From the IMG/VR virus record IMGVR_UViG_3300027983_000019, positions 1-58,109 of that record: a stretch of DNA of 58,109 nucleotides; one strand, given 5' to 3'. The notes below the pieces were generated by a model. That model made no database searches and was not told where the DNA came from. It saw only the letters and a program-made list of their open reading frames with translations. Both the position numbers and the translations under genes were made by a program. Positions 1 through 30,767 of this stretch are shown here, piece after piece (position 1 is the stretch's first letter; each line of letters opens with the position of its first letter). The stretch comes from a virus.

Positions 1-294
1 TGGTTAATCGATAATTTTGGTGATTTGACACCGGTTGTTGATGGTGATAAAACATTTTATGTTGATGGTAATAAAAAAACAATTTTTTATTATTATCAGG
101 ATGAAGAAAATGGACTTTGTTACGTTAATAATGATGATATATGGTCAGTTTTGAAAACCCGTTTTGGGATTAACTATAATGAAATTCAGAAAGTTACAAC
201 CATGTGGTTGGATGAGGTATACGGATTAACAGGACTCACACCGCCAATGCGCGGCAACCAATATTCCAACCGTTGGATGAGGTATACGGAATAA
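1..294 (+). CDS. Gene-array family protein, copy A (5' end outside window)
   Basis: The frame is open from base 1, so the N-terminus lies upstream of the window. It is nearly identical to the copy at 452-799. The recognisable core runs through FGDLTPVV, a Tyr-rich FYYYQDEENGLCYV strand, IWSVLKTRFGIN and ends in TTMWLDEVYGLTGLTP. That last stretch is encoded by the first repeat of the array at 207-432. After the repeat the frame reads into spacer 1 and, because that spacer is 29 bases, enters repeat 2 out of phase and stops at 292-294. Function unknown; the family's other members carry an N-terminal peptide resembling a phage capsid-targeting sequence. Confidence 0.75.
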   Translation, partial: WLIDNFGDLTPVVDGDKTFYVDGNKKTIFYYYQDEENGLCYVNNDDIWSVLKTRFGINYNEIQKVTTMWLDEVYGLTGLTPPMRGNQYSNRWMRYTE

Positions 295-432
295 CGGGAC
301 ACACACCTGATTTGTCTTTTTTAACCTTTGGGTGACGTTGGATGAGGTATACGGATTAACAGGACTCAAACCATTAGGGAATTTATCTAAATCATAAATC
401 GTGTTGGATGAGGTATACGGATTAACGGGACT
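207..432 (+). repeat. CRISPR-like gene-terminal repeat-spacer array A
   Basis: 36-base repeats at 207-242, 272-307 and 337-372, plus a last copy whose first 30 bases (403-432) match before it diverges. Spacers at 243-271 (29), 308-336 (29) and 373-402 (30) are unrelated to each other. Repeats begin GTTGGATGAGGTATACGG and end in CACC or a one-base variant. Repeat 1 is also coding (WLDEVYGLTGLTP). The degenerate final repeat runs directly into the upstream region of the next gene copy at 452. Confidence 0.9.
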
Positions 433-451
433 AGATAAACTATTTATAATT

Positions 452-799
452 ATGAACATTAGAAAAATAATAAAAGAGGAAATTGATAACTTCGATTGGA
501 TTGACCAATCGGGTATTGAAACCCCACTATCATGGTTAATCGATAATTTTGGTGATTTGACACCGGTTGTTGATGGTGATAAAACATTTTATGTTGATGG
601 TAATAAAAAAACAATTTTTTATTATTATCAGGATGAAGAAAATGGACTTTGTTACGTTAGTAACGATGATATATGGTCAGTTTTGAAAACCCGTTTTGGG
701 ATTAACTATAATGAAATTCAGAAAGTTACAACCATGTGGTTGGATGAGGTATACGGAATAACGGGACTCACACCATTAAAAATTTATTCGTTGAAATGA
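452..799 (+). CDS. Gene-array family protein, copy B, with capsid-targeting-like N-terminus
   Basis: 115 residues. It starts at the ATG preceded by ACTATTTATAATT, the same upstream box seen before other family members; the frame is open further upstream only through the repeat. N-terminus MNIRKIIKEEIDNFDW contains I-K-E, which fits the (I/L)-x-E cleavage rule known for T4-type prohead proteases. The C-terminal WLDEVYGITGLTP is the coding copy of the array repeat, and the final residues (LKIYSLK) come from spacer 1. Function unknown; packaging into the capsid is inferred. Confidence 0.8.
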   Translation: MNIRKIIKEEIDNFDWIDQSGIETPLSWLIDNFGDLTPVVDGDKTFYVDGNKKTIFYYYQDEENGLCYVSNDDIWSVLKTRFGINYNEIQKVTTMWLDEVYGITGLTPLKIYSLK

Positions 800-840
800 T
801 TGCTGTTGGATGAGGTATACGGAATAACGGGACTAACACC
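739..840 (+). repeat. CRISPR-like gene-terminal repeat-spacer array B
   Basis: Repeats at 739-774 (coding, end of copy B) and 805-840, with a 30-base spacer at 775-804. The two repeats differ at one position near the 3' end (CTCACACC versus CTAACACC). The bases after 840 do not lead to another repeat. Confidence 0.85.
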
Positions 841-11650: not shown

Positions 11651-11673
11651 AATTATAAATGGTTTACTTATCT

Positions 11674-11769
11674 AGTCCCTTTATTCCATACACCTCATCC
11701 AACAAATATTAAGTTTTGAAAATAATATCCGTAGGTATGAGTCCCGTTATTCCATATGCTTTATCCAAC
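11674..11769 (-). repeat. CRISPR-like gene-terminal array C1
   Basis: On the minus strand: coding repeat at 11769-11734, 30-base spacer at 11733-11704, terminal repeat matching over 30 bases at 11703-11674, then divergence into the next (relic) gene's upstream box. The terminal copy reads GTTGGATGAGGTGTATGG, closer to the consensus than the coding copy (GGATAAAGCATATGG). Confidence 0.85.
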
Positions 11770-12050
11770 CATATGGTTGTAACTTCCTGAATTTTATTAT
11801 AATTAATCCCAAAACGGGACCCCAAAAGTGACCATATTTCATCATATTTAATATAACAATTCCCATTTTCTTCATCCCGATAATAAAAAAACAATTTTTC
11901 ATAATTATCATCAACATAATATATTTTATCACCCCTAACAACCGGTGTCAAATCACTAAAATTATCAATTAACCACGAAAGTGGGGTTTCGACATCATTG
12001 ACCCAATCGAAGTTATCAATTTCTTCCTTTATTATTTTTCTAATATCCAT
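11709..12050 (-). CDS. Gene-array family protein, copy C1
   Basis: 113 residues from ATG at 12050, preceded on its strand by AACTATTTATAAAC. N-terminus MDIRKIIKEEIDNFDW, then ETPLSWLIDNFSDLTPVV, the FFYYRDEENGNCYIKYDEIW segment and C-terminal TTIWLDKAYGITGLIP encoded by the first repeat. The tail TDIIFKT is spacer-encoded. See copy B for the cleavage-site argument. Confidence 0.8.
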   Translation of the reverse strand: MDIRKIIKEEIDNFDWVNDVETPLSWLIDNFSDLTPVVRGDKIYYVDDNYEKLFFYYRDEENGNCYIKYDEIWSLLGSRFGINYNKIQEVTTIWLDKAYGITGLIPTDIIFKT

Positions 12051-12064
12051 GTTTATAAATAGTT

Positions 12065-12433
12065 TTAATCCTCCCAATACACAAATTCTCGAAGTTGGCC
12101 AACCCATAGTGTTGGGTGTCCTGTTATCCCATATACTTTATCCAACCATATGGTTGTAACTTCCTCAACTTCACCGGTGTTAAGACCGAAATAAGTCAAC
12201 AAAACACCCCATATTACCTCATAATCAATAAATAATATACTACCTTCTTCATTTTTATTATAATAAAAAAACGCTTCTTTTTTATCATCAACATAAAAGG
12301 TTTCGTCACCCTTAACAACCGGTGTCAAATCACCAAAATTATTGATTAACCACGAAAGTGGGGTTTCAATACCCGATTGGTCAATCCAATCGAAGTTATC
12401 AATTTCTTCTTTTATTATTTTTCTAATGTTCAT
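12065..12433 (-). CDS. Gene-array family protein, copy C2 (divergent)
   Basis: 122 residues, upstream box AACTATTTATAATT. N-terminal half almost identical to copy B; from KKEAFFYYNKNEEGSILF onward more divergent. The C-terminus TTIWLDKVYGITGHPT is the coding repeat, and the tail runs through the spacer (LWVGQLREF) into a badly decayed repeat, stopping at 12065. Confidence 0.8.
   Translation of the reverse strand: MNIRKIIKEEIDNFDWIDQSGIETPLSWLINNFGDLTPVVKGDETFYVDDKKEAFFYYNKNEEGSILFIDYEVIWGVLLTYFGLNTGEVEEVTTIWLDKVYGITGHPTLWVGQLREFVYWED
12081..12146 (-). repeat. CRISPR-like gene-terminal array C2
   Basis: Coding repeat at 12146-12111 and a 30-base spacer at 12110-12081. The next repeat is reduced to a decayed remnant (GTATTGGGAGGATTAAAAC) fused to the upstream box of copy C1. 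Confidence 0.7.
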
Positions 12434-12488: not shown

Positions 12489-12492
12489 GTTG

Positions 12493-12894
12493 TGGACCTA
12501 GAGGGCTTCGAACCCCTCGTGTTGCCCAATATTCAATAAGTCTTCTACATGTTTATTCTATTTTTCTAAATAGACAAAATACAGAGTTCCCTTATTACTG
12601 TTCGGTTTACTCAGAACTAATCTTCAGTCATCTCTTTTTATGGTAGTGATTACACCTTGTTTCCGATTCTGTGTGACTTTACGTTTTACCCCTATCGGTT
12701 GTCAGGTTGTAAAGGTATTCAACATAGTCTAACTACGCTGTTACTGCTACACCATCAGTAACAAAGTTACCAACAGTTGCATCTGCTAAAATGTCTCCAT
12801 TTAAAATTGTGATACGATTAATTAACGTGACTATTATCATCTCACGACATGCTTACACTGTACATCTTATTGACAGTCAATTCCATTTAGGCCC
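12493..12894 (-). ncRNA. ssrA: tmRNA (trans-translation RNA)
   Basis: 402 bases. The 5' end GGGCCTA pairs with 3' TAGGTCC (one G-U) as the tRNA-like acceptor; the T-arm GAGGGGTTCGAAGCCCTC and discriminator A precede the 3' end, and AATGGAATTGAC matches the conserved 5' tmRNA segment. An open frame from GCA at 12786 to TAG at 12733 encodes a tag ADATVGNFVTDGVAVTA. It ends in a hydrophobic-small pattern (VAVTA) rather than the usual ALAA. The 3' CCA is not encoded. Works with SmpB and the host ribosome to rescue stalled translation. Confidence 0.9.
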
Positions 12895-20095: not shown

Positions 20096-20908
20096 ATGGA
20101 ACTAAAAAGATTAAAAAAAATAATAAAAGAAGAAATAGGGGATTTTGACTGGGCACAAGATGTGTTAGCGGCTAGTCCAGATGATGAAGAGTTTGAATCA
20201 ATGCTTAACCACTTTGGGGCTAATTTGGTTTACGCTGAGGATTTTGAGGAAACGGATAGTTATGACTATCTTGGTGGGAAAACTTACAATGTTGATGGTG
20301 AAACTTGGGTGGTTTTAACCAAGGAACAAGCTGATGAAACATTAAAAGAGGATATACGAAGTCTTTATGAAGAGTTGGGTGTTGAAACAGTACGTGATAT
20401 ATCTGATTATGTTACTGTTTCCCAACAATGGATTGATGATTTTTGTGATGAGGAGGCTGACCATTATATGGATGATATAGATGAGGAAGACATACTCTCC
20501 AATTCTGATGATGAATACGAGGAAAGATATGATGACCTAACAGAGGAGATTGAGGAACTTGAGGACTTGTCTGATGATGATGAGTCCGTACAAACAAGAA
20601 TTTATGACCTAATAAAGCAAAGAGATAAAATTCTTGACGATGCTCGTGATGATGTAAGGGAAACCGAGTTGGTTGAATTACATAGATGTATGGAAGACCC
20701 AATTTATTGTTTAGTTAACGAAAAGGGTTGGTATTCTACTACTAAAGAATTACTTGATGCCATGTTATCACAATGGGGATGGGATATTGATGAAGAAAGA
20801 CTTGTTAACGACCTATTTCAAGAATCTAATTATGATTCATTGGGTTATGGTGAATACGCTGAAGAGATTGTTGAAGATACTGTTTATATATTGATTAGAA
20901 TGGATTAA
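20096..20908 (+). CDS. Acidic protein with capsid-targeting-like N-terminus
   Basis: 270 residues. N-terminus LKRLKKIIKEEIGDFDWAQDV, with I-K-E as a prohead-protease-like site. The body is extremely acidic (EEDILSNSDDEYEERYDDLTE, then EELEDLSDDDE) with a coiled-coil-like centre, and could mimic DNA or bind basic proteins. Preceded by AATATTTATTAGT. Function unknown. Confidence 0.65.
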   Translation: MELKRLKKIIKEEIGDFDWAQDVLAASPDDEEFESMLNHFGANLVYAEDFEETDSYDYLGGKTYNVDGETWVVLTKEQADETLKEDIRSLYEELGVETVRDISDYVTVSQQWIDDFCDEEADHYMDDIDEEDILSNSDDEYEERYDDLTEEIEELEDLSDDDESVQTRIYDLIKQRDKILDDARDDVRETELVELHRCMEDPIYCLVNEKGWYSTTKELLDAMLSQWGWDIDEERLVNDLFQESNYDSLGYGEYAEEIVEDTVYILIRMD

Positions 20909-25470: not shown

Positions 25471-25812
25471 ATGAACATTAGAAAAATAATAAAGGAGGAG
25501 ATTGATAACTTTGATTGGTTTGATGAGGGTGAAACTCCATTATCGCGGTTAATTGATAATTTTGGTGATTTGACACCGGTTGTTAGGGGTAATCTAACAT
25601 TCTATGCTGATAATAATAATAATAATAAAACAATTTTTTATTATTATCAGGATGAAGAAAATGGACTTTGTTATATTAATTATGATGAAATATGGTCAGT
25701 TTTGGAGTCTCGTTTTGGGATTAACTATAAGGAAATTCAGGTGGTTATAACCAAGTGGTTGGATGAGGTATACGGATTAACGGGACTCACACCTTCAAAA
25801 TCGATTTGGTGA
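25471..25812 (+). CDS. Gene-array family protein, copy D1
   Basis: 113 residues. MNIRKIIKEEIDNFDWFDEG, FGDLTPVVRG, FYYYQDEENGLCYINYDEIW, C-terminal TKWLDEVYGLTGLTP (coding repeat) and spacer tail SKSIW. Upstream ATATATTTATAG. Lies between two minus-strand blocks of tRNA-operon DNA. Confidence 0.8.
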   Translation: MNIRKIIKEEIDNFDWFDEGETPLSRLIDNFGDLTPVVRGNLTFYADNNNNNKTIFYYYQDEENGLCYINYDEIWSVLESRFGINYKEIQVVITKWLDEVYGLTGLTPSKSIW

Positions 25813-25904
25813 AATAGTTGAAGGTTGGATGAGGTATACGGAATAACGGGACTTACACCGTACTCTGGAGAATCTTCTGTTTACTTGGCGTTGGATGAGG
25901 TATA
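25758..25904 (+). repeat. CRISPR-like gene-terminal array D1
   Basis: Repeats 25758-25793 (coding) and 25824-25859, then a repeat truncated after 15 bases (25890-25904). Spacers 25794-25823 and 25860-25889 are both exactly 30 bases and unrelated. The second spacer is open in all 10 codons (YSGESSVYLA). Confidence 0.9.
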
Positions 25905-25932: not shown

Positions 25933-26280
25933 ATGAACATCAAAAAAATAATAAAAGAAGAAATTAATAATTTCGATTGGTTTGATGAGGGTGAAACACC
26001 ACTATCGTGGTTAATCGATAATTTTGGGGATTTAAAACCAGTTGTTGATGGTAATAAAATCACTTATGTTAATGATAATAATAAAATATTCTTTTATTAT
26101 TATCAGGATAAAAAAAATGGATATTGTTATATTAAATATGGTGAAATATGGTCAGTTTTGGATTCCCGTTTTGGAATTAACGATACTGAAATTATGGAAG
26201 TTACAACCACATGGTTGGATGAGGTCTACGGAATAACGGGACTCATACCCATAAGTTACGGTTCCCATTGCAGCATCTAG
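25933..26280 (+). CDS. Gene-array family protein, copy D2
   Basis: 115 residues. MNIKKIIKEEINNFDWFDEG start (I-K-E), FYYYQDKKNGYCYIKYGEIW, C-terminal TTTWLDEVYGITGLIP from the repeat, tail ISYGSHCSI from spacer 1. The stop TAG is completed by the first base of repeat 2. Confidence 0.8.
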   Translation: MNIKKIIKEEINNFDWFDEGETPLSWLIDNFGDLKPVVDGNKITYVNDNNKIFFYYYQDKKNGYCYIKYGEIWSVLDSRFGINDTEIMEVTTTWLDEVYGITGLIPISYGSHCSI

Positions 26281-26381
26281 TTGGATGAGGTATACGGAAT
26301 AACTGGACTCACACCTTTAAGTTGGTGGTGATACAACTTCTTCATGTTGGATGAGGTCTACGGAATAGTGGGGTGTACACC
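26214..26381 (+). repeat. CRISPR-like gene-terminal array D2
   Basis: Repeats 26214-26249 (coding), 26280-26315 and 26346-26381 (last one diverged in its second half: GGAATAGTGGGGTGTACACC). Spacers 26250-26279 and 26316-26345, 30 bases each. The array ends 38 bases before the 3' end of tRNA-Arg on the other strand. Confidence 0.9.
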
Positions 26382-30301: not shown

Positions 30302-30417
30302 TACGGGTGGATGGACTCGAACCACCAAAAACTACTTTTCGGATTACTCTTACTTTTCGTCCACCTCGTCATGGGTTACCCCAAACAAGGCGTGTTTACC
30401 AATTTCACCACACCCGC
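30302..30417 (-). tRNA. Oversized tRNA-Leu-like (116 bases)
   Basis: Acceptor GCGGGTG/CACCCGT, D-arm TGGTGAAATTGGTAAACACG, stem CCTTG/CGAGG enclosing a 17-base loop that itself folds as TGGG-GTAA-CCCA. A long variable region (CGAAAAGTAAGAGTAATC…) is shared with the next two Leu genes. Confidence 0.65.
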
Positions 30418-30439: not shown

Positions 30440-30545
30440 TACGGAAGAAGGGACTCGAACCCCTAAAAACTACTTTTCAGATTACTCTTACTTTTTCGTT
30501 CACTACCCTAAAGAATAGCGTGTTTACCAATTTCACCACTTCCGT
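30440..30545 (-). tRNA. Oversized tRNA-Leu, probably TAG (106 bases)
   Basis: Acceptor ACGGAAG/CTTCCGT, Leu D-arm, anticodon arm CTATT-CTTTAG-GGTAG, variable region of about 38 bases (GAACGAAAAAGTAAGAGTAA…) before T-arm AGGGGTTCGAGTCCCTT. Confidence 0.7.
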
Positions 30546-30661: not shown

Positions 30662-30767
30662 TACATGAGGATGGAATCGAACCATCAAGAACTACTTTTC
30701 AGATTACTCTTACTTTTTCGTTCACTACCCTAAAGAATAGCGTGTTTACCAATTTCACCACTCATGT
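30662..30767 (-). tRNA. Oversized tRNA-Leu, probably TAG (106 bases)
   Basis: Different acceptor (ACATGAG/CTCATGT) but the same D-arm, anticodon arm and expanded variable region as 30440-30545. First tRNA after the promoter at 30801. Confidence 0.7.

Follow-up and report, generated by a model that had tools for sequence, protein, structure and literature searches.

Gene-terminal arrays in phage genomes suggest that host CRISPR machinery writes into the genes of viruses of Bacteroidota

The genes of a multi-copy phage family end in a 36-nt sequence that recurs downstream between unrelated spacers, which suggests that the CRISPR machinery of the hosts writes into viral genes in viruses of Bacteroidota. 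These structures are probably virus-borne type II-C-like mini-CRISPR arrays, in which the coding 3' end of the gene provides the leader and the first repeat, and which would be extended by host Cas1-Cas2. The anatomy of the arrays, as read from their sequences, strongly suggests that the insertion step is carried out by Cas1-Cas2.

Gene copies and arrays in the window

The window, which is the whole stretch of DNA analyzed here, is a virus record of 58,109 bases (IMG/VR IMGVR_UViG_3300027983_000019), and its first 12.5 kb has no megablast relatives in INPHARED. As an earlier note on this DNA had described, it carries six paralogous genes of one family that end in one 36-nt sequence. Their products (113–122 aa; the first gene runs past the left edge) start with MNIRKIIKEEIDNFDW and end with W-L-D-E-V-Y-G-[IL]-T-G-L-T-P or a close variant, and the 36-nt repeat corresponds to the final 36 coding nt, GTTGGATGAGGTATACGGAATAACGGGACTCACACC. 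The note had placed an array behind each of the six genes and counted ten spacers, whereas the sequence recurs 3' at 65–66-nt steps behind five of them, with nine spacers of 29–30 nt that show no mutual relatedness. The 20-nt core of the repeat occurs 12 times in the window (≤3 mismatches), compared with 0.05 expected, and none of 100 shuffles contained as many.

On the plus strand, gene copy 1 (1–294), whose 5' end lies beyond the window, reads ...MWLDEVYGLTGLTP... up to a stop at 294, and is 98% identical to copy 2 across 242 nt. Array 1 (207–438; repeats at 207–242, 272–307 and 337–372, and a last one starting at 403 that matches until about nt 31) has the coding 3' end of this gene as its first repeat, and spacers at 243–271, 308–336 and 373–402. 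Gene copy 2 (452–799, 115 aa) carries array 2 (739–840), which consists of the coding repeat 739–774, the spacer 775–804 and the repeat 805–840. Gene copy 3 (25471–25812, 113 aa) carries array 3 (25758–25904), with repeats at 25758–25793 and 25824–25859, a degenerate last repeat at 25890 that retains the first 15 nt, and spacers at 25794–25823 and 25860–25889. Gene copy 4 (25933–26280, 115 aa) carries array 4 (26214–26381), with repeats at 26214–26249 and 26280–26315, a degenerate one at 26346–26381, and spacers at 26250–26279 and 26316–26345. On the minus strand, gene copy 6 (11709–12050, 113 aa) carries array 5 (11668–11769), which consists of the coding repeat 11769–11734, the spacer 11733–11704 and the repeat 11703–11668 with an altered 3' end. 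The spacing within arrays 1 to 5 is thus 65, 65, 66 / 66 / 66, 66 / 66, 66 / 66. The remaining gene, copy 5 (12065–12433, minus strand, 122 aa), has a lone diverged repeat (12146–12111) and no array, and the differences in this repeat are mostly synonymous. A degenerate last repeat, which had also been reported earlier, is clear at 25890 and 26346; only the 3' end is changed at 403 and 11703, and the last repeat at 805 is intact.

Rfam detected no RNA family at the window arrays, and the gene-family protein has no convincing Pfam or PHROGs match. Its AlphaFold model (pLDDT 84) yielded weak fold matches, to unnamed phage proteins only. An N-terminal stretch, e.g., M(N/D/K)I(R/K)KIIKEE or ...ILKESDFDW, is common to the six gene copies and to window proteins with quite different bodies (at 20096, 21318, 21705, 41498, 42405 and 56226). 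Adjoining gene copies 5 and 6, an apparently non-coding stretch (12490–12894, minus strand) resembles tmRNA (RF00023, full-model match with E 1.3e-14; its 40.2 bits are below the gathering score of 47) and received no ARAGORN call. The window also contains 23 tRNA genes on the minus strand (22436–49174) and three tandem tRNA-like genes (30302–30417, 30440–30545 and 30662–30767, minus strand) whose anticodon region is longer by about 35 nt; these are found by Rfam and not by ARAGORN, and are possibly intron-bearing or degenerate tRNAs.

Array anatomy and spacer turnover among related phages

Exact matches to the window repeat in IMG/VR led to three more array-bearing phage contigs, from three metagenomes, and to one chance match. 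A protein-based search added distant relatives (45% and 36% identity) that are also array-ended, with GCTGGATGAGACCTACAATTTAAGGGGATTCACACC and GTTGGATGAGGTATACAATTTAAGGGGAGTCACAAC. A scan with the core TACAATTTAANGGGNNTNACA yielded 55 stretches; most contain a member of the gene family, many have arrays, and one, L054, was rejected as a chance match. The same anatomy was seen in dozens of related large-phage contigs in IMG/VR, with 59 distinct arrays and about 97 spacers, a spread that goes beyond the earlier note. Repeat-bearing loci number 13 in the 296-kb record G010, where nine have at least two repeats, and four in the 281-kb record G007, where two have arrays. Many loci among the related phages have a single repeat and no array. 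The family motif at the gene end is W-L-D-E-V-Y-[NG]-[LI]-x-G-x-T. Codon conservation was 0.81 for the first repeat compared with 0.71, a figure that was not used as evidence because most loci were fetched by a pattern that fixes part of the first repeat.

The repeat-bearing module also terminates other proteins (L061 12751–13209; L017 5947–6300; L063, 11249 region, minus strand). In one module-ended protein, the N-terminus is formed by the C-terminal portion of an Fe/Mn superoxide dismutase (PF02777, E 1.7e-17), and other such loci have open frames of 507 and 578 aa. At L002 5048–5600, two adjacent gene copies have the same CAGTAACGGGCGTCAATACAAACAAACC / CATTAACGGGCGTC... and the same remnant behind their last repeats, indicating that whole gene-plus-array units duplicate.

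The anatomy was evaluated in the 59 distinct arrays, which have 2–6 repeats each. They combine constant 36-nt repeats with unrelated spacers of near-constant length, so that the CRISPR-like size, regularity and polarity proposed for the window hold in the related phages as well. The 97 unique spacers are mostly 30 nt (39 spacers), 31 nt (29) or 29 nt (14) long, with a few of 32–33 nt and a mode of 30, and have a GC content of 0.34 compared with 0.32 for the phages. The internal repeats are 98% identical to the gene's own repeat over nt 1–23 and 95% identical over nt 24–36, whereas the gene-distal repeat is 91% and 40% identical, respectively, with a sharp break past nt 23. The leader-distal terminal repeat is thus degenerate, although some arrays keep an intact one, and the conservation of its first 23 nt suggests some use for that part. 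The arrays lie in viral genomes without cas genes, as do virus-borne mini-CRISPR arrays, and hold up to 5 spacers compared with 1–2.

In all these arrays, as in the window, the leader position is occupied by the coding 3' end of the gene, instead of a non-coding AT-rich leader. The second repeat matches the first repeat of its own gene at 35.1 of 36 positions and the repeats of other genes at 30.6, indicating that the copies descend from the gene-proximal repeat. The reading frame is kept by 44 of the 97 spacer lengths, and out-of-frame reads stop inside the second repeat; the downstream repeats are therefore not maintained as coding sequence. Copying at the nucleotide level, which had been proposed for the window, is borne out there and in the related phages. 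The protein tails past the constant motif are all different and spacer-encoded. Position 1 of the repeat is G in all arrays, and position 36 is C (G on the opposite strand) in 92%. The two preceding nt are invariably TG, which, followed by G, is also the conserved Trp codon.

For the analysis of spacer turnover, the arrays were grouped by their downstream flanks. In such groups, the same gene at the same place is followed by quite different spacers. Partly shared arrays were found in only three groups (L027/L076 and L032; L039 and L041; L029 and L074), and in all three the common spacers are gene-distal and the differences are confined to the gene side. Spacers thus differ among relatives, being lost and gained gene-proximally, in keeping with the CRISPR-like character first noted in the window. 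For L076 and L032, which come from two metagenomes, 3 mismatches were found in the 4,574 bp compared (none in 1,649 bp of flank on the gene side and three in 2,925 bp on the other side). Their four distal spacers are identical, whereas the gene-proximal spacer is wholly different (33 and 31 nt). As judged from this comparison, the pattern is what leader-proximal acquisition, with duplication of the leader-proximal repeat, would leave, while exchange between arrays may be the source of the difference in a single pair.

CRISPR machinery, spacer targets and host repeats

No Cas1 (PF01867) was detected in 43 phage records, including two of nearly 300 kb, and no Cas9 (TIGR01865) or Cas2 (PF09827) in 16, while bacterial controls scored; the records are fragments or of uncertain completeness, so this absence, which agrees with the lack of cas genes noted earlier, is not proof. 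The window has a weak HNH-like match (16.5 bits, far under the cut-off). No tracrRNA-like anti-repeat exceeded shuffles in G010, G007 or the window, and no complete type II-C locus, with cas9, cas1, cas2 and tracrRNA, was detected in the phage records searched. Downstream of the arrays, antisense promoters were not in excess, TAnnTTTG being at background. The candidate antisense promoter TATAAATA was rejected, as it is merely the TATTTATA motif of the next gene. This motif precedes many ORFs by no more than 30 nt in G010, G007 and the window (44 of 314 in G010, compared with 1.7 expected), and is probably a phage promoter motif.

The window spacers, for which a search against phage and plasmid genomes had been proposed, gave no match in INPHARED or PLSDB; nor did any other spacer in INPHARED. 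Seed searches with five spacers in IMG/VR found no full-length protospacer. An origin of the spacers in the phages' own genomes or in sister phages was also considered and rejected, as no match exceeded chance except for one of 20 nt. In this case, an L074 spacer matches a gene of related phages at 20 of 20 nt, without a full-length match, and the matching part is at the would-be PAM-proximal end of the spacer. The two largest genomes have 16 spacers, and for none of these was a match to the carrier genome better than chance; a purge of guides against the phage itself would lead one to expect this.

Likeness of the repeat to Bacteroidota type II-C repeats was an aspect outside the earlier note. 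A phage-repeat pattern (GTTG, TACAATTT, CACAAC) was run over 84,980 species and hit 77 stretches. In three of them, many copies follow each other at 66-nt steps. These stretches are arrays from two Bacteroidota: Flavobacteriales UBA5081 (L173/L214), where genes like cas9, cas1 and cas2 are present, and Ekhidna (L177), where cas1 and cas2 are. Repeats are 36 nt and spacers 30 nt long in either genome, and the arrays lie behind cas2 in the same orientation as a phage array behind its gene. For UBA5081 (L214), the last repeat keeps only the first 20 nt, and an anti-repeat with a terminator-like hairpin adjoins cas9, which indicates that the crRNA reads in the opposite orientation. In crRNA orientation, the phage repeat reads GTTGTGACTCCCCTT-AAATTGTA... 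and that of UBA5081 GTTGTGAATCGCTTTCAAATTGTA....

Since a pattern search is biased, repeats were also taken, by a repeat-blind choice, from type II Cas1 loci of Bacteroidia, where type II Cas1 was found in 53 of 217 genomes. Against the resulting 21 II-C repeats, with the Ekhidna repeat added, none of 2,000 self-shuffles scored as well as two common phage variants (TACAATTT), whereas 74 of 2,000 did for the more diverged variant of the window, whose II-C likeness is weak. No species in the genome collection has a repeat of the exact phage form, and none of 395 Bacteroidia genomes has the phage repeat at phage spacing. A type VI-B repeat, which has similar ends and size, was rejected because the phage repeat lacks a hairpin (z −0.28, compared with −3.41 for a VI-B repeat). 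Many 46–47-nt II-C repeats of Bacteroidia (e.g., L301, L317 and L323) contain TATCTTTG, which matches the Bacteroidota −7 promoter box TAnnTTTG, in agreement with transcription starting within repeats.

In the II-C system of F. columnare, the repeats are 36 bp with a leader-distal GTTGT, transcription runs towards the leader, and Cas1-Cas2 also serves a foreign (VI-B) array in trans (PMC8092290). For type II-A of S. thermophilus, recognition by Cas1-Cas2 takes in about 10 bp of the leader and 5 bp of the repeat; a G is required at each end of the 36-bp repeat, and off-target sites mimic the leader-repeat junction (PMC6895254).

Explanations and comparison with known systems

In the probable course of events, the host type II-C Cas1-Cas2 would mistake the gene end for a leader-repeat junction, insert a prespacer of about 30 bp and duplicate the 36-bp target, upon which the gene would retain its motif and gain a new tail and stop codon. 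Transcription of the arrays might further oppose that of the gene, just as it runs towards the leader in II-C arrays; the array RNAs could then pair with host tracrRNA and perhaps direct host Cas9 to rival phages or to mobile elements of other kinds. By analogy, the arrays would most likely function like the virus-borne mini-CRISPR arrays of SPV1/SPV2, using host proteins against related viruses. The full picture, in which a phage gene doubles as CRISPR leader and first repeat, host II-C Cas1-Cas2 keeps adding spacers, several updatable guide arrays borrow host Cas9 and the protein tail is altered too, has about an even chance of being correct. Against the main reading, no genome with this repeat and no convincing protospacer were found in the searches run, the TAnnTTTG box of many 46–47-nt host repeats is absent from the phage repeat, and the spacer lengths, with 31 nt common and some of 32–33, spread wider than in host arrays.

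The gene ends could instead be false leader-repeat junctions that divert host Cas1-Cas2 into phage genes, the arrays being scars that give no useful crRNA. The high copy number of the gene (G010 with 13 repeat-bearing loci, the window with six genes), the shortness of the arrays, and the lack of detected cas genes and of a clear antisense promoter are consistent with such a decoy for adaptation. Scars of infection, however, should mostly carry DNA of the infecting phage, whereas self-matches above chance are absent among the 16 spacers of the two largest genomes. Conservation also extends to the gene-distal spacers and to the initial 23 nt of the last repeat; this explanation is unlikely. A decoy at the RNA level, in which gene mRNA with the tracrRNA anti-repeat-like UACAAUUUAAGGGGAGUCACAAC soaks up host crRNA repeats in the manner of a Racr, extra repeats serving as dose, would account for the many loci with one repeat and no array, and for the resemblance of the 3' half of the repeat, in gene orientation, to the host anti-repeat ACAATTTGAAAGCGATTCACAA. 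It leaves the unrelated 30-nt spacers with their one-ended turnover unexplained and appears improbable.

Without any CRISPR enzyme, the arrays could also come from simple tandem duplication followed by decay, or from homologous recombination that passes repeat-spacer units between phages. Duplication of a whole gene with its array is seen in L002, and a spacer could be swapped by recombination between repeats. The spacers, however, have no common ancestry and a tight length of about 30, and between near-identical flanks they are wholly different, always on the gene side, which makes such an origin very improbable. Spacers that serve to vary the C-terminal tail behind a constant motif would fit the differing, spacer-encoded tails. 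Fewer than half of the spacer lengths (44 of 97) are in frame, however, out-of-frame reading ends immediately inside the second repeat, and conservation of repeats and spacers reaches well past the stop codon; diversification of the protein is the least credible account of all.

If extension by host Cas1-Cas2 is true, CRISPR adaptation extends past non-coding leaders, and a conserved coding sequence can be an entry site; a widespread group of aquatic Bacteroidota phages would carry several updatable arrays per genome without a cas gene. The arrays would be a natural record of captures by host Cas1-Cas2 during infection, possibly a means for phages to turn host immunity on their rivals, and would directly test how short a leader suffices for type II integrases.

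In the open-licence literature searched, viral mini-arrays and solitary repeats are described, none with a protein-coding leader and first repeat, and none that terminates the members of a multi-copy gene family. The mini-CRISPR arrays of the Sulfolobales viruses SPV1/SPV2 (PMC6858448; review PMC11656645) are likewise short, viral and without cas genes, close relatives carry different spacers at the same position, and host adaptation machinery is presumed. Unlike the present arrays, they are intergenic, lie behind a host-like leader, have host-like repeats and target related viruses, whereas the phages analyzed here have a coding leader and first repeat and up to about nine arrays each.

Bacteroidota II-C arrays (F. 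columnare, PMC8092290; R. anatipestifer, PMC6008519; UBA5081, L173/L214; Ekhidna, L177) share the 36-nt repeats (in one subgroup), spacers of about 30 nt, the leader-distal GTTGTGA, the degenerate far repeat (UBA5081, L214) and new spacers beside the leader. The phage arrays differ in that no cas9, cas1, cas2 or tracrRNA is nearby and a coding gene stands where cas2 and the leader would be, and their repeat matches the II-C repeats at best at about 20 of 24 nt. Solitary repeat units, or RNA anti-CRISPRs (PMC10651486), are also phage-encoded mimics of host repeats without cas genes, whereas the present phages have arrays with changing spacers and a coding first repeat. Ectopic integration by type II Cas1-Cas2 (PMC6895254) likewise occurs at lookalikes of the leader-repeat junction; here, in contrast, the site is conserved across many phages and used repeatedly.
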